Assembly: GCF_913063105.1 (NCBI RefSeq)
Contig: NZ_CAJXYQ010000020.1
Span: 1 to 64,000, forward strand
DNA from: an uncultured Draconibacterium sp.
GTDB taxonomy: Bacteria > Bacteroidota > Bacteroidia > Bacteroidales > Prolixibacteraceae
DNA length: 64,000 nt
Reading direction: 5' to 3'
Of this stretch, positions 41,603 through 58,975 are shown in pieces; positions within the stretch are counted from its first letter, which is position 1, and each line of letters opens with the position of its first letter. The notes below the pieces were generated by a model. That model searched no databases. It was not told where the DNA came from and saw nothing but the letters and a program-made list of their open reading frames with translations. The position numbers and the translations under genes were made by a program.

Positions 41603-41948
41603 AATGAGTCTTTTATTATGATTTCCGTTAAACGAATAAAAAGCAAGCATTTAACTTTAGGCTGCCAAACATACAATTCAAATACAATTGCAGCAGAACA
41701 ACAAATTTAAGGCATACTACATAAAAAATCAAAAATCTTCAATTAATAAAACAGGCTCAGCTGTAATGCCTTTAAATTAATCTATCAGCATTGCGAATGC
41801 CTTCTACAATAAATATTTGAGCTAAAAGCTATCTGAATGAGTATGTTGTGTTTCCATCATTCTGCTGCTTCGGGGATTAGACAGGCTGCATAAAACAAAA
41901 AAGAGCTGAAAATCAGGTCTCTGCAACCTTAACTTTCAACTCTTAATG
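41603..41948. other. intergenic region before the tRNA genes
   Basis: About 345 bases with no supported gene or strong hairpin. It must carry the promoter of the serine hydrolase gene and the end of the tRNA transcript. Confidence 0.4.
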
Positions 41949-42022
41949 CTCCCCAGGTTGGACTTGAACCAACGACCTACGGATTAACAGTCCGCCGCTC
42001 TAACCAACTGAGCTACTGGGGA
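41949..42022 (-). tRNA. tRNA-Asn (anticodon GTT), copy 2
   Basis: A 74-nucleotide cloverleaf read on the minus strand: acceptor TCCCCAG/CTGGGGA, D-arm AGCTCAGTTGGTTAGAGC, anticodon loop CTGTTAA (GTT), T-arm GGTTCAAGTCC. The last base before CCA is the discriminator G; CCA is not encoded. It is identical to the copy 67 bases upstream. Confidence 0.97.
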
Positions 42023-42089
42023 AAATAATTCCCGTAAATAAAGATAAAAAATAAAGCGCTACATGATTGTTCACATAACGCCTCTTGGG

Positions 42090-42163
42090 CTCCCCAGGTT
42101 GGACTTGAACCAACGACCTACGGATTAACAGTCCGCCGCTCTAACCAACTGAGCTACTGGGGA
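42090..42163 (-). tRNA. tRNA-Asn (anticodon GTT), copy 1
   Basis: Identical to the other copy over all 74 nucleotides, on the same strand and 67 bases away; both are likely cut from one transcript. The anticodon GTT reads AAC and AAT. Confidence 0.97.
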
Positions 42164-42372
42164 AGGTTTTTTTATTCCCTTCTTTTATTTTTAGAGAACG
42201 TTGCTTTTGAAAAGCGATGCAAAAGTAACAGCTTTTCGTGAAACTCAAAACATTTTTCAAAAAAAATATAAGCTTCATCAATCAATTATCCCTACTACAT
42301 CTCAAAACCAATTCAATTTAATATTGTTATACTCTTAATTACTCAACAGAATTACATTTAAATTCATACAAA

Positions 42373-52300: not shown

Positions 52301-53802
52301 GCCAGGCCATGTTAACCGTTACAGGAAAACGTGGCGATCAACCATTTTTAAAAGACGTGCTTGACATAACCACACGAATGGTGATTGGCGTCCGTACTTT
52401 TTCGGTTACCTACAGCAAAAACGGAGGCTCGGTATTACCGGGGTTCCTGCCCGAGCCAACCTTATTTGGTACAGGCAAATTTAGTGGCGATCCGGATTGG
52501 GGCACACCAACTGCCAGCACCAAACTGGCACCAGGGTTACCATTCCTTTTTGGCTGGCAAGATCGAGACTTTGCTGTAAAAGCCGCTCAAAACGGTTGGT
52601 TAACAATCGACTCTCCCCTTACCCAGCCATACCAGATTATGGAGAATGAGCGCATTAATTTACGCGCCCTGTGGGAACCGCTCCCCGACCTCCGAATTGA
52701 TATTACTGCTAACCGCTCGATATCGAAAAATATTACTGAGTTTTATAATTACGATTATGGCAGTGGTACTTTCGTGCCTAACAGCTATTCTGAAAGCGGA
52801 AACTTTAGCATGTCGACATTTACCCTGGGAACGGCCTTTTTTGCCATTGGCAAAGAAGAAGTAAGCAGCTCTGATGCTTTTGAAAACATGAAAGATTTTC
52901 GCCGTGTTATTGCCAACAGGCTGGCACAACAACGTGGAACCAGTGGTGGATACAATCCCAACACCCCCCACCCTAACTACCCGGGATATCCCGATGGTTA
53001 CGGACCAAACTCGGTTGAGGTTCTTGTTCCGGCATTCCTCGCAGCCTACCAAAATAAGGACCCGGAGAACGTTTCTTTGGGCATGTTCCCCTCGTTAAAA
53101 TATATGCGCCCCAACTGGAGCATACGTTACGAAGGAATGGTTTCACGTATTCCGGGATTAAACCAAATTATGCGTTCGTTGAATTTCCAGCATACTTATC
53201 GCTCGAGCTACAATATTGGTTCGTACGCCACCAACCTCAACTTTATTGCAGCAGAAGATGGCTATACCATGGTTCGCGACCTGGCTGACAACTTTGTTCC
53301 GGCCTACGATTTTAACTCGGTAAGTATTGTTGAAGCATTCAATCCGCTTATTAATATTGATATTATGTGGTTAAGCGATTTAACTACCCGCGGTGAAATA
53401 AAACGATCGCGCAACCTAAACCTATCCTTGTCAAACAATCAGCTTACCGAGATTTTAAGCAGCGAGTATATTTTGGGTGTAGGCTATCGGTTTACACACA
53501 TGGATTTGATAATAAAAACCAAAAACTCGCAACAGGCCTATTCGAACGATTTGAATGTCCGTGCCGATATTTCGTACCGTAAAACAAAAACCATATTACG
53601 CCAGCTTGATGAAGCCAACGACCAGATTACAGCCGGACAAGGTAACTTTACCATTAAAACATATGCCGATTACCGATTGAGTGATAAATTTGAAATGCGC
53701 GTGTATTACGACCGAATTATTAACGATCCGTTTACATCGTTATCGTATCGTACTACCAATGCCAACTTCGGAGTAAGCTTCAGGTTTACCTTATCCAATT
53801 AA
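46333..53802 (+). CDS. sprA: SprA/Sov, outer-membrane translocon of the type IX secretion system
   Basis: A 2489-residue giant outer-membrane protein with an N-terminal signal peptide (MTLSRSLPKIFFNFILFFTLAFPFTGIAQ). Its length and sequence (YDPVLGQYVFYEKVG, IQPQGYVEVSFGYQVNKTDNPS, TGQIGTKMNMRVNYNTEATFDYEN) identify the SprA/Sov family. In this family a 36-strand barrel forms the pore through which T9SS cargo crosses the outer membrane, and in gliding bacteria it is needed for gliding. The C-terminus (TTNANFGVSFRFTLSN) is a final barrel strand. It follows ruvA by 73 bases and precedes the trp leader. No other T9SS gene (porK/L/M/N, porV) is in the window, and neither are T9SS cargo proteins with clear C-terminal signals. 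Confidence 0.97.
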   Translation: MTLSRSLPKIFFNFILFFTLAFPFTGIAQEVPEIDTTGPLPYPFQDQPAFGYTMQDSSKLYLNKPSNIQYEIEYDPVLGQYVFYEKVGSLNYRLPQSMSLDDYMEYDFDKSIRDYWRSRTQQESIDARGGLLPKLTIGSEAFNRIFGGNTINIQPQGYVEVSFGYQVNKTDNPSIPERLRKVPTFDFDEKIQMNVTGQIGTKMNMRVNYNTEATFDYENKMNLEYTGDEDEILKRIEAGNVSLPLNGSLITGASNLFGVKAEMQFGKLTLTTLFSQHRGESKTVETEGGAQVATFDISAANYDANRHFFLSQYFRDHYNEWLKSTAVPRSPITINKVEVWVTNKSNDFDDSRNILAFQDLAEHDPHIYNNIPEFQATPGLPYPANQFPTNGANGLYEQMSTTYSAVRQVENITSVMAQFGTDFVGGTDFEKIEQARKLNESEYTVNKQLGYISLNSSLNTDEVLAIAYNFTYNDQTYQVGEFSTDGIDAPKTLFMKMLKGTNLSPGRPTWDLMMKNIYNLNAYQLTSDDFELNVVYQNDSTGTYINYLPDSRIEGHILLEVMRLDMLNSQLDPTKDGVFDYVEGITVNSNSGRIIFPVVEPFGSHLADSIQDPNYIEKFVFQSLYDSTQVKAEQDAEHNKFRLTGSYKGSSSSDIALGALNLTQGSVTVTAGGQVLTENVDYTVDYTLGRVKIINQALLEAGTPIQVSTESEDLFTMQRKTLMGTHANYAFSDNFNIGATMLWMNERPLTEKVDYGQDPISNLMYGLDARYNTEAPFITKALDALPFYSTTAASAIDVEAEFAQLVPGSSKAIDGAVYVDDFESTKTAIDMRTRSSWMLASTPQFQNDLFPEANLNNSLDYGVNRAKLAWYNIDPLFLRNNSLTPDHIKNDRDMQSNHFVREVFEQEIFPEREFTTGEPTNIAVLDLAFYPSERGPYNFDAGNSSYSAGVNSDGSLRAPETRWGGIMREIQTSDFENANIEYIEFWMMDPFVNDTMGEHQGGDLYFNLGEVSEDVLKDSRKAFENGLPTSAELTNIDTTIWGRVSTQQSLVNAFDNTTDSRQYQDIGFDGINDEDERSHFQKYLDELRLKVSDDVYQEALNDPATDNFHYYRGSDYDEQELDILERYKKYNGPDGNSPTSEMSPESYPTSATTLPDIEDINDDNTLNEYERYYQYRVSLRKEDMELGNNFISDIKRSRVELKNGEIGEVDWYQFKIPVNTPESVIGNISDFNSIRFMRMFMHGFADPTVLRFATLDLVRADWRRYTGDILEDEAIPSTNAEFDISAVSIEENSSREPVNYILPPDVSRVIDPANPQLRQLNEQSIELKVTELEQGDARAAYKSLYMDFRRYSTLKMEVHAEEIEEYPLDDDELYFFIRMGSDYNYNYYEYEVPLTLTPAGNYNGDIESDRYIVWPDANRINIPLELFTDLKLERNDAMRIEGSGISLLDIYEGSHDGWNDGKNRVKVKGSPNLGNVEVFMMGVRNKRGQVNTGPKSVIVWANELRLTDFDDEGGWAANARVSTRLADLGSVVVAGRKRTAGFGSIDENINSRSMDDLNEIDVAASIDWGRFFPEKAGVRIPMYYGYSNSTATPKYDPLNPDIELKESLDHAQSKTEKDSIKQMSQDVVERKSINFTNVKVEPQRQKEKTHLWDPENFAVTYSYNETSKRNITTEYNVDKTHRLMFSYNYSNRPKLIQPLSQVKFLQKGPLKLIGDFNFYPLPTQISYRTDLFRRYHEKQSRNITNPNLILPATYDKDFLWNRYLDIRYDVTRSLKFDFSSRGTSRIDEPEGRINKNDDDYEWKRDSILTNLWNLGRPTVYNHSFNATYQVPLRSIKALNFMSGTVRYSGSYEWAAGSLTDDDINVGNIITNSRNLTLTGNANFQTLFNKVPYFKEVNQKFRRTGRGRNSMNRSATRGRSNQQPEPLQKKQEETFTSSMKLTADQGQKIAHKLNTKKVKVLVTDVDGKVVPGKTNIVDANTIEFIPTTDVRQAMLTVTGKRGDQPFLKDVLDITTRMVIGVRTFSVTYSKNGGSVLPGFLPEPTLFGTGKFSGDPDWGTPTASTKLAPGLPFLFGWQDRDFAVKAAQNGWLTIDSPLTQPYQIMENERINLRALWEPLPDLRIDITANRSISKNITEFYNYDYGSGTFVPNSYSESGNFSMSTFTLGTAFFAIGKEEVSSSDAFENMKDFRRVIANRLAQQRGTSGGYNPNTPHPNYPGYPDGYGPNSVEVLVPAFLAAYQNKDPENVSLGMFPSLKYMRPNWSIRYEGMVSRIPGLNQIMRSLNFQHTYRSSYNIGSYATNLNFIAAEDGYTMVRDLADNFVPAYDFNSVSIVEAFNPLINIDIMWLSDLTTRGEIKRSRNLNLSLSNNQLTEILSSEYILGVGYRFTHMDLIIKTKNSQQAYSNDLNVRADISYRKTKTILRQLDEANDQITAGQGNFTIKTYADYRLSDKFEMRVYYDRIINDPFTSLSYRTTNANFGVSFRFTLSN

Positions 53803-53906
53803 TTGTTAAACCAAGTTTATTTGCGAATCAGATTTTTAAGCTTATGACAACATTATTTTGATTTTTCAAAAAAAACGTTTTTCTTGCAGAAGATTAAATT
53901 TAAAAA

Positions 53907-53957
53907 ATGCAAAAAATAAATACAATATGGCTTCCGTGGTGGGGTCTTCTTACGTAA
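53907..53957 (+). CDS. trp leader peptide 1 (Trp-rich, 16 residues)
   Basis: The reading frame is MQKINTIWLPWWGLLT followed by TAA. Three of 16 residues are Trp, including tandem TGG TGG at 53937-53942. It lies upstream of trpE and just before an intrinsic terminator, as expected of an attenuator leader whose translation senses charged tRNA-Trp. It is too short for usual gene finders. There is no Shine-Dalgarno sequence, as for most genes here. Segment AATATGGCT (53924-53932), covering the first Trp codon, is exactly complementary to AGCCATATT (53972-53980). Confidence 0.8.
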   Translation: MQKINTIWLPWWGLLT

Positions 53958-54002
53958 GTTAGGAGTTAAAGAGCCATATTGCTATTTTTAAAAATATGAC
54001 TG

Positions 54003-54031
54003 ACCTGCTTCTAACAAAAGCAGGTTTTTTT
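54003..54031 (+). terminator. attenuator terminator 1 of the trp operon
   Basis: An 8-bp perfect stem (acctgctt/aagcaggt, loop ctaacaa) is followed by seven T. It comes 45 bases after the stop of leader peptide 1. A segment just after that stop, GTTAGGAG (53958-53965), can pair (one G-U) with CTTCTAAC (54008-54015) and so open this hairpin. Confidence 0.85.
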
Positions 54032-54048
54032 ATGACAGATAAATAATT

Positions 54049-54105
54049 ATGAGAACAAACAATAACATTTGGTGGTGGCGTAGCAACTTTTTACAAATAT
54101 CGTGA
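54049..54105 (+). CDS. trp leader peptide 2 (three consecutive Trp codons, 18 residues)
   Basis: The reading frame is MRTNNNIWWWRSNFLQIS, then TGA. Three TGG codons in a row at 54070-54078 are most unlikely by chance. It starts 18 bases after attenuator terminator 1, so it would be transcribed only when that terminator is passed, unless there is a second promoter (none seen). It precedes attenuator terminator 2. Segment TGGCGTA (54076-54082) pairs with TACGTCA (54114-54120) (one G-U), as segment 1:2 of an attenuator. Confidence 0.85.
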   Translation: MRTNNNIWWWRSNFLQIS

Positions 54106-54134
54106 AGAGAGGATACGTCATTGTACAAATTAAG

Positions 54135-54168
54135 AACGGCTCATCGAAATTCACGATGAGCCGTTTTT
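54135..54168 (+). terminator. attenuator terminator 2 of the trp operon
   Basis: A 12-bp perfect stem (aacggctcatcg and its complement, loop aaattca) is followed by TTTTT. It lies 30 bases after the stop of leader 2 and 73 bases before the trpE ATG. ATCGTGAA (54099-54106), covering the leader stop codon, is exactly complementary to TTCACGAT (54150-54157) in its loop and right arm. Confidence 0.9.
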
Positions 54169-54240
54169 AGTTTAAACGCCTTATATACAGGAATTTTACA
54201 ATTGAAATACAACAAAAAAGAACAAAACAAAAAATACAAA

Positions 54241-55650
54241 ATGGAAAAACTAAATTTTAAACCGGTTGTAAGAAAAATACTTGCCGACACGGTAACGCCC
54301 GTAAGTGTGTACTTACGCTTGCGAACACTTTATCCAAAATCGATTTTGCTCGAAAGCTCTGACTACCACGGCGTTGAAAATGCCTACTCGTTTATCGCTT
54401 TTAAACCTATTGCCGATTTTAAGGTAAACAATGGCGAAGTTAGCATAGACCTGCCGGGAAGAGAAAAGCAAAATTTTTCGCTATCGCCCGACCGGATTTT
54501 ACACGATGAGCTTGACGCTTTTTTCAAACTATTTAATGTTGATTCAGAAGAAATTGAATTGCCGGCCAATGGTTTATTTGGCTACCTGAACTTCGATGCT
54601 ATTCAGCATTTCGAAAGTATTCGTTTTTCGGCCGACAAAAAAGAAGAATACCAAACGCCCGAAGTGAGTTACAGTTTCTATAAATATGTGGTAGCTATCG
54701 ATCACCACAAAAACCAGATTCACATTGTTGAAAATCTGCTGGAAGGCGAAGAATCGCAGATGGATTACATTCACCACTTACTGGTAAACCTTAATTTTGC
54801 AACATCAGCCTTTGAAACCCGGGGCAACGAATCGTCGAACATTACCGACGAAGAGTATATGCACATGGTAACAAAAGGAAAAGAACATTGCTACCGAGGA
54901 GATGTATTCCAGATTGTGCTAAGCCGCCAGTTTTCGCAAGAATTTGTTGGCGACGATTTTAACGTTTACCGGGCTTTACGCTCAATAAATCCTTCGCCTT
55001 ACCTGTTCTATTTCGACTACGGATCGTATTCAATTTTTGGTTCGAGCCCCGAGGCCGAAATCCGGATAAAAGACAATAAGGCCTACATACACCCCATTGC
55101 CGGTACCTTTAAAAGAACGGGGAACGATGAACGCGACCGCGAACTGGCTGAAGAGCTGAGTAAAGACCCAAAAGAAAATGCCGAGCACGTGATGTTGGTA
55201 GATTTGGCCCGTAACGACCTTAGCCGAAATGCAGGCAATGTTATCGTTGAAACCTATCGCGAGGTGCAGTTCTTTTCGCATGTTATTCATTTGGTTTCAC
55301 AGGTTTCGGGCGAGATAAGCAACGACACCAACCTGATAAAGGTTTTAGGCGAAACTTTCCCGGCAGGAACATTATCGGGCGCGCCAAAATATAAAGCCAT
55401 GGAACTTATCGACCATTATGAAAATCAGAACCGGGGATATTACGGCGGCTGCATTGGCTACCTCGGTTTTGATAATTCGGTAAATCATGCCATTATGATT
55501 CGTTCGTTTTTAAGTAAAAACAATAAATTGTTTTACCAGGCAGGTGCCGGTGTTGTAGCCGATTCGAAAGAAGAAAGCGAGCTGCAGGAGGTAAATAACA
55601 AACTGGCTGCATTAAAAAAGGCAATCTTAATGGCAAAAGAAATCAACTAA
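54241..55650 (+). CDS. trpE: anthranilate synthase component I
   Basis: A 469-residue chorismate-utilising enzyme. With TrpG it makes anthranilate from chorismate and glutamine, the first step of tryptophan synthesis. Family segments present: LLESSDYHGVENAYSFI at the N-terminus (LLES is the Trp feedback site), QIVLSRQFSQEF, NPSPYLFYFDYGSYSIFGSSPE, PIAGTFKRTG, ENAEHVMLVDLARNDL, and ETFPAGTLSGAPKYKAMELI. I chose the ATG at 54241; an upstream TTG frame would overlap the leader region. It heads the trpEGDCFBA operon and is preceded by two attenuator units. Confidence 0.97.
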   Translation: MEKLNFKPVVRKILADTVTPVSVYLRLRTLYPKSILLESSDYHGVENAYSFIAFKPIADFKVNNGEVSIDLPGREKQNFSLSPDRILHDELDAFFKLFNVDSEEIELPANGLFGYLNFDAIQHFESIRFSADKKEEYQTPEVSYSFYKYVVAIDHHKNQIHIVENLLEGEESQMDYIHHLLVNLNFATSAFETRGNESSNITDEEYMHMVTKGKEHCYRGDVFQIVLSRQFSQEFVGDDFNVYRALRSINPSPYLFYFDYGSYSIFGSSPEAEIRIKDNKAYIHPIAGTFKRTGNDERDRELAEELSKDPKENAEHVMLVDLARNDLSRNAGNVIVETYREVQFFSHVIHLVSQVSGEISNDTNLIKVLGETFPAGTLSGAPKYKAMELIDHYENQNRGYYGGCIGYLGFDNSVNHAIMIRSFLSKNNKLFYQAGAGVVADSKEESELQEVNNKLAALKKAILMAKEIN

Positions 55651-58763: not shown

Positions 58764-58975
58764 TGTACGAAAAATGATCGTACCGGATTATAAAAGGCAT
58801 CTTCCGGCTTCGGTCTTCCTGCTACCAACTTTAATAGTATGAAAGGAGCATGGCCTAAGGAACACAAAAGGATATAAATAAATTAATCATGCGAGTTCCA
58901 CGGGTATCGACCATCAAATATTTAACAGAGATCATATATGTTTGAAATACAAGATATTAACTAAATTATATTCAA
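58764..58975 (+). promoter_or_regulatory. trpF-trpB gap with hairpin and internal -7 element
   Basis: The 212-base gap is much longer than the others in the operon (12-86 bases). It opens with a 6-bp inverted repeat GTACGA/TCGTAC (58765-58783, no T run) two bases after the trpF stop, and contains TATGTTTG (58937-58944), matching TAnnTTTG, 31 bases before the trpB start. No good -33 TTTG is seen. It may hold an internal promoter for trpBA or an RNA processing site. Confidence 0.45.

Follow-up and report, generated by a model that had tools for sequence, protein, structure and literature searches.

The trp operon of an uncultured Draconibacterium sp. is probably controlled by attenuation in series, with a first gate that would be threaded through an uncharacterised, conserved RNA and a second gate that would be an ordinary trp attenuator. 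This reading comes from the comparison of one window (the whole stretch of DNA analysed, 64,000 nucleotides, to which all positions below refer) with the corresponding regions of relatives.

In the window, the upstream gene is sprA (TIGR04189, 2720.9 bits) and the downstream operon is trpE-G-D-C-F-B-A; the best model for TrpE was TIGR00564 with 434 bits, below the cutoff of 517.7. The nearest named relatives include Draconibacterium orientale, whose TrpE is 91% identical over the best segment. The interval between sprA and trpE contains two short ORFs with Trp codons, each followed by a terminator-like hairpin. The following features were assigned, all on the + strand.

53907..53957, + strand: leader ORF 1, MQKINTIWLPWWGLLT, with three Trp codons
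53918..53988, + strand: structured RNA core, a predicted three-way junction
53918-53931/53973-53987 (P1), 53934-53943 (P2, CC-GUGGUG-GG) and 53946-53953/53958-53965 (P3), + strand: predicted helices of the core
53958..53965, + strand: GTTAGGAG, the 3' arm of P3 and putative antiterminator strand, complementary to 54008-54015 (CTTCTAAC) by duplex energies
54002..54031, + strand: terminator 1 (hairpin 54002-54026), a 9-pair stem with a 7-nt loop and a T-run
54049..54105, + strand: leader ORF 2, MRTNNNIWWWRSNFLQIS, Trp codons at 54070-54078 and stop at 54103-54105
54099..54105, + strand: ATCGTGA, putative antiterminator strand for attenuator 2; it overlaps the stop codon and is complementary to 54151-54157 (TCACGAT)
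54135..54168, + strand: terminator 2, a 12-pair stem (54135-54165) with a 7-nt loop and TTTTT to 54168, then AGTTT
54241..55650, + strand: trpE, first gene of trpEGDCFBA

The original prediction had placed two Trp-codon leaders between sprA and trpE, each with an intrinsic terminator behind it. Both leaders are read directly in the sequence and have counterparts at the same position in dozens of relatives, and both hairpins are present, with stems at 54002-54026 and 54135-54165 and T-runs reaching 54031 and 54168. The second leader does lie close behind the first terminator, as had been said, with 17 nt, and not 18 bases, between the first T-run and the ATG of leader 2. Two side observations concern the remainder of the window: a tandem pair of tRNA-Asn genes is found at 41948-42164, and a gap of 212 nt (58764-58975) separates trpF from the first listed start of trpB.

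To compare these elements, TrpE was searched for at E up to 1e-60 and was found in 127 of 140 genomes of the same family, the source genome included. Upstream DNA was taken from 124 of the 127, G048, G079 and G123 being excluded as their trpE was partial or at a contig edge. Six genomes counted within the 124 (G017, G018, G034, G056, G060 and G086) have less than 500 nt upstream, and the absence of leader 1 from them is therefore uninformative. Named loci were also collected, with 80 of 287 kept; because many of these duplicate the same genomes, counts are restricted to the family genomes.

The first element was examined at the level of its ORF and its hairpin. Leader ORF 1 starts with ATG at 53907 and stops at 53955-53957, with Trp codons at 53928-30, 53937-39 and 53940-42. 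By eye, a promoter-like box, T-rich and ending in TTG, precedes the ATG by about 20 nt, and relatives have a similar one; leader 1 is thus probably near the 5' end of the transcript. Terminator 1 was detected by a simple terminator scan and by family comparison, and the fold running from leader 1 to terminator 1 had a RNAfold z of -3.6, equalled by 0 of 200 shuffles. Terminator 1, through its 5' arm and loop, is complementary to the 3' arm of P3, and this fit is genome-specific: duplex energies were -10.0 kcal/mol for native pairs, -7.0 for cross-genus pairs and -5.3 for shuffled ones. This was measured in the 80 genomes in which the element and a terminator were detected, a set that includes three core-less genomes of genus g23 and differs from the 80 genomes with core and ATG described below. 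The native duplex was stronger than the cross-genus one in 75 of the 80 and stronger than the shuffled one in all 80; the five exceptions to the former include, among the rows listed, G114, G002 and G082. The only Rfam match was RF00513 (Trp_leader) at 53931-54033, sub-threshold at 24 bits against a cutoff of 41.

The second element was less unusual. Leader-2-type ORFs are present in most of the family, being absent from genus g3 and a few other members, and W-rich ORFs occupy the same place in the loci of Tenacibaculum, Chitinophaga and Flexithrix, leader-2-type ORFs being found also in other named Bacteroidota. The fold from leader 2 to terminator 2 gave a RNAfold z of -7.8 (0 of 200 shuffles equal). 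The simple terminator scan reported terminator 1 on the + strand and the second hairpin on the - strand only. A stricter T-run rule missed terminator 2 in eight genomes, the source genome included, probably because A/U and G-U pairs lengthen the stem into the T-run; a looser rule detected the source copy. We then surveyed the W-rich ORF nearest to trpE in the family genomes and in the named loci from L060 on, some of which duplicate family genomes and each of which was counted as its own genus. Such an ORF was found in 166 regions and in none of 11 further regions, and with the looser rule 160 of the 166 had a terminator behind it; the six misses correspond to five g3 genomes with unrelated-looking ORFs and to G041. 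In genus g3 (L197-L203, L207), no Trp leader resembling the others was seen upstream of trpE. When the stop-codon region was paired with the 3' arm and loop of the terminator, native combinations were stronger than cross-genus ones in 119 of the 160 regions and not in 41, with means of -8.8 (native), -7.4 (cross-genus) and -6.3 kcal/mol (shuffled). Since this pairing is stronger within a genome than across genera, gate 2 resembles an ordinary trp attenuator of the ribosome-mediated type; it has counterparts elsewhere in the Bacteroidota.

In contrast with a mere leader peptide, the first element overlaps a structured RNA. The core was delimited by its match to covariance model R1 (E 2.6e-18, the sequence being part of the alignment of the model), by covariation and by its fold. 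The codons of leader 1 sit within it and are nearly invariant by nucleotide: the core sequence AATACAATATGGCTTCCGTGGTGGGGTCTTCTT is almost unchanged in most of the genera having it, a shorter form, GGCUUUGGUGGGG, occurs in genera g8, g9 and g17, and the internal loop is near-invariant. Among 61 copies encoding WLPWWGLL, 56 share one identical 24-mer, and the others (four and one) differ from it by one synonymous base. A three-way junction was predicted for nine of ten folded copies, the tenth, G074, giving a single nested stem. Covariation was scored on inputs (A3 and A4) fitted to the structure of the model. With 60 distinct rows, P3 covaries and four of five measures exceed all 500 shuffles, while on the fifth, which counts further pair types, 181 of 500 shuffles do as well; the inner pairs of P1 hardly vary and one pair of P3 fails in 24 of the 60 rows. 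With the 17 rows lacking the leader ATG, all five measures exceed the shuffles, with slides of +1 to +3 equalling or exceeding the structure on some of them. Two other roles for this sequence were considered and set aside. P1 was rejected as a terminator in its own right because the T-run that follows is, by eye, short or broken in some copies (for example in G131 and g17), and compensatory changes in the variable hairpin fit an RNA better than a DNA operator.

The core appears to be specific to the family and to trpE. R1 matched 102 of the 140 family genomes: 97 at trpE, four (G023, G048, G056 and G097) on contigs not joined to trpE, and G119 with a lone, weak match. There is one strong match per genome, at trpE; second rows, among the matches listed (complete to an E of about 0.04), were the opposite strand of the same place, except for one weak row in G083. 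In samples of 393 genomes from the order (E up to 0.05), 395 from the class and 395 from the phylum (both E up to 0.001), the only strong matches were members of the family. Outside it, R1 matched G462 (5e-6), G1188 (9e-5) and a few others more weakly, G739, G404, G513, G519 and G198 among them. Inspected by eye, the match in G462 consists of a stem rich in A/T close to a radical-SAM-like gene, that in G1188 lies near alpha/beta-hydrolase-like genes and a weak one in G192 near a nitric-oxide-reductase-like gene, and all three were discarded. A search of the genome with TGGTGGTGG was uninformative (99 sites, and 90 for the reversed pattern). The two leaders differ in sequence and each is conserved in relatives. 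Leader-2-type ORFs occur in other Bacteroidota and, in these samples, strong matches to the leader 1 RNA are confined to one family, which agrees with the original view that the pair is not a recent duplication.

We next compared how the parts of the first element are distributed. By one script, the core adjoins trpE in 97 of the 124 upstream regions. An in-frame ATG stands 7-10 codons before the first TGG in 80 of these 97 genomes, the source genome included. In all 80 copies the spacing from TGG to TGGTGG is in frame (6 or 9 nt). Terminator 1 was found by script before leader 2 in 79 of the 80, the remaining one, G021, having by eye a degenerate hairpin with an interrupted stem. The leader-2 ORF is likewise present in 79 of the 80 genomes with core and ATG, so the paired leaders that were expected before trpE in relatives do exist. 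The other 17 of the 97 (G016, G072, G073-G076, G100, G103-G106, G125-G128, G130 and G131) have neither ATG nor terminator 1 and yet keep the core, and none of the 97 has terminator 1 without the ATG.

In 15 of the 17 ATG-less genomes, the frame of the first TGG contains no usual start (ATG, GTG or TTG) between that codon and the stop before it; the exceptions are G076, with a TTG 10 codons upstream, and G128, with an ATG 30 codons upstream. All 17 have an in-frame ATA one codon upstream of the first TGG. UGG and UGGUGG are retained in these copies, and in two of the 17 their spacing is out of frame (5 and 11 nt). Through such frame-breaking spacings, the internal ATG of the core is in frame with TGGTGG in G073 and G100; at the G100 locus (L185; L188 is that of G073) the TGGTGG frame continues, by eye, into leader 2. 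In each of the 17, 97-103 nt separate the core from the Trp run of leader 2 downstream. In 12 of them (g2, g7, g15 and g21), mean pairwise identity was 0.98 for the 5' part of the core and 1.00 for its 3' part. By comparison, leader 2 reached 0.83, the spacer 0.67, the sequence upstream 0.56 and the hairpin loop 0.45.

The converse state was found in genus g23, where five of six genomes (G133, G135, G136, G137 and G139) have a Trp-codon ORF and a terminator with no recognisable core, the terminators of G136 and G137 being assigned by eye; the sixth, G138, retains the core. In G139, complementarity resembling P1 was seen by eye, and what is scored as loss of the core may thus be divergence. At the G136 locus (L130), a single Trp leader, MNQLITVWFWWLSCFPGKK, with a terminator-1-like hairpin stands directly before trpE, and leader 2 has apparently been lost. 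A separate observation concerns Tangfeifania, in which a nucleotidyltransferase/HepT-like gene pair (PF18765/PF01909, PF01934) lies between terminator 1 and leader 2 (L042:2104-2728) and would sit inside the attenuated leader; by eye, L114 (G042) has a similar pair in the same place, and there the second gene seems to carry a disrupted frame.

Three changes account for the ATG-less state on a tree built from 85 TrpE rows, and a single ATG-less clade was rejected (p-AU 0.0001, with long branches present). The association of ATG with terminator gave a Fisher p of 5e-18 with relatedness ignored and three independent contrasts on the tree (sign test p 0.25); as the two traits are labelled identically, no genome being mixed, their agreement on the tree arises by construction. 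The three states (RNA and ORF, RNA only, ORF only) indicate that ORF and terminator come and go jointly and the core separately, and these separate losses suggest that the Trp-codon attenuator and the RNA are overlapping modules that evolution has split. The serial attenuation that had been proposed is in keeping with two attenuator-like units of which relatives keep both; the view of element 1 as a leader peptide and nothing more does not hold, since 17 of 97 genomes keep the core although they lack both ATG and terminator. Being conserved where translation would not occur, with the usual start absent in 15 of the 17, the core RNA probably has a translation-independent role of its own.

What this role may be was considered from several angles. 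That gate 1 is a classical leader-peptide attenuator and no more, with codon and hairpin constraints conserving the nucleotides and ATG-less copies being relics or using unusual starts, seems to us very unlikely. The invariable Trp frame of the 80 ATG-bearing copies, the antiterminator complementarity and the five core-less g23 genomes would all suit it, and the ATA codons and the TTG of G076 could serve as odd starts; however, no part of the leader is as conserved as the core in the 12 ATG-less genomes compared (0.98-1.00 against 0.56-0.83), the TrpE tree does not group the 17 as a single clade (p-AU as above, long branches in play), and the Trp frame is broken in two of them. Conservation of the core could also reflect a 5' mRNA stabiliser or a small RNA acting in trans after release by attenuation, as S. 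meliloti rnTrpL does. The promoter-like box, which probably puts the core near the 5' end, and terminator 1, which would free a short RNA, are compatible with this, whereas the terminator is absent from the ATG-less genomes and no target is known: besides the element itself, only two complementary sites with three mismatches occur within the window. The three antisense matches in all (shuffle mean 0.81; at least three in 3 of 100 shuffles) amount to a weak excess, and they were not retained as targets. We regard this explanation as improbable.

Binding of a macromolecule, either uncharged tRNA-Trp or an RNA-binding protein, is unlikely as well, if somewhat less so. In its tRNA version, by our own reasoning, the UGG triplets of P1 and those of the P2 loop would face the CCA anticodon of tRNA-Trp or its 3' CCA, and UGG and UGGUGG are indeed kept where the ATG is lost. 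Against it, Rfam returned no T-box row at E up to 10 in 53800-54260, the core is shorter than known T-box stem I requires, and neither TrpR (PF01371) nor TRAP/mtrB (PF02081) was matched in the genome, whose assembly is about 91% complete. More plausible, though still less likely than not, is that the core serves as a riboswitch aptamer whose ligand would be tryptophan or a pathway metabolite, with the leader ORF as a later overlay or secondary. The three-way junction of nine in ten folded copies, the near-invariant internal loop, the covarying P3 and the one strong match per genome at trpE are what such an aptamer might display, and a putative platform (the 3' arm of P3 against the terminator) is present where terminator 1 is. 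On the other hand, neither a terminator nor another expression platform was identified for the core in the 17 ATG-less genomes, and the RNA has a single gene context and hence gives no independent clue to a ligand. Among roles for the core we thus rank an aptamer for tryptophan or a pathway metabolite first and macromolecule binding second.

In the model that we favour, of serial attenuation with the core within the first gate, the trp operon mRNA would pass two gates, gate 1 being a hybrid. A ribosome stalled at UGG UGG of leader 1 would mask the 5' arm of P3, GUUAGGAG pairing with CUUCUAAC to give antitermination, and a ribosome at UAA would mask GUUAGGAG, giving termination; we infer this covering of the P3 arms from geometry. 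The same bases would double as the conserved, predicted three-way junction, whose conservation is independent of translation from the ATG. At gate 2, a ribosome stalled on UGG UGG UGG would leave the stop-codon region available for pairing with terminator 2 (its loop and 3' arm), giving read-through, and one at the stop would mask that region, giving termination. Tryptophan would be the signal, and the core would act as an aptamer-like sensor rather than, for instance, a stabiliser; it is possibly an aptamer for Trp or tRNA-Trp. In the strongest form of the model, which we advance as speculation, the core naturally senses tryptophan or uncharged tRNA-Trp and has the leader ORF threaded through it, so combining an aptamer with a ribosome-read attenuator, with a second attenuator after it and the sensor alone in ATG-less lineages.

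Features of this arrangement are found separately in known systems. We know of no structured core of this kind in S. meliloti peTrpL. As in this leader region, E. coli trpL (RF00513) has a Trp-codon ORF and competing antiterminator and terminator upstream of trpE; here there are two such units in series, and the first overlaps a conserved RNA that persists without the ATG. Salmonella mgtCBR has two short ORFs in one leader, an attenuator with each (PMC3641672); its ORFs answer different signals (ATP and proline), for which its abstract terms it a singular example, whereas here both carry Trp codons. Serial gates on tryptophan biosynthesis also exist as tandem T-box riboswitches before trp operons, given as exclusive to Bacillota (PMC12452182), but these are tRNA-binding RNAs and not translated leaders. 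A translated short ORF overlaps a structured regulatory RNA in the B12 switch of M. tuberculosis metE (PMC11260477), which has a known ligand and controls translation, whereas transcription attenuation would operate here and the ligand role of the core is putative. In S. meliloti peTrpL, also a trp attenuator, the leader product acts beyond attenuation in cis (PMC7298713). A survey of leader genes that includes Bacteroidetes (PMC4833913) contains no trp leader in its available parts. In open-access PMC literature, among the matches listed and judged by title and the start of the abstract, neither tandem trp leaders in Bacteroidota nor the core RNA is described; for a tryptophan riboswitch, nearly all titles concern synthetic biology or engineering, and an excerpt reports none predicted in S. 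meliloti or related alpha-proteobacteria. On the distinction between riboswitch and attenuator, as drawn in PMC11207198, the leader 1 element blurs the two classes.

Serial Trp-codon attenuators are a natural setting in which to ask whether stacking gates makes a response sharper or wider. The occurrence in one family of RNA with ORF, RNA only and ORF only represents an evolutionary dissection of an overlapping, separately lost module, and gives a way to test whether the same bases can serve both a leader-peptide attenuator and a sensing RNA.
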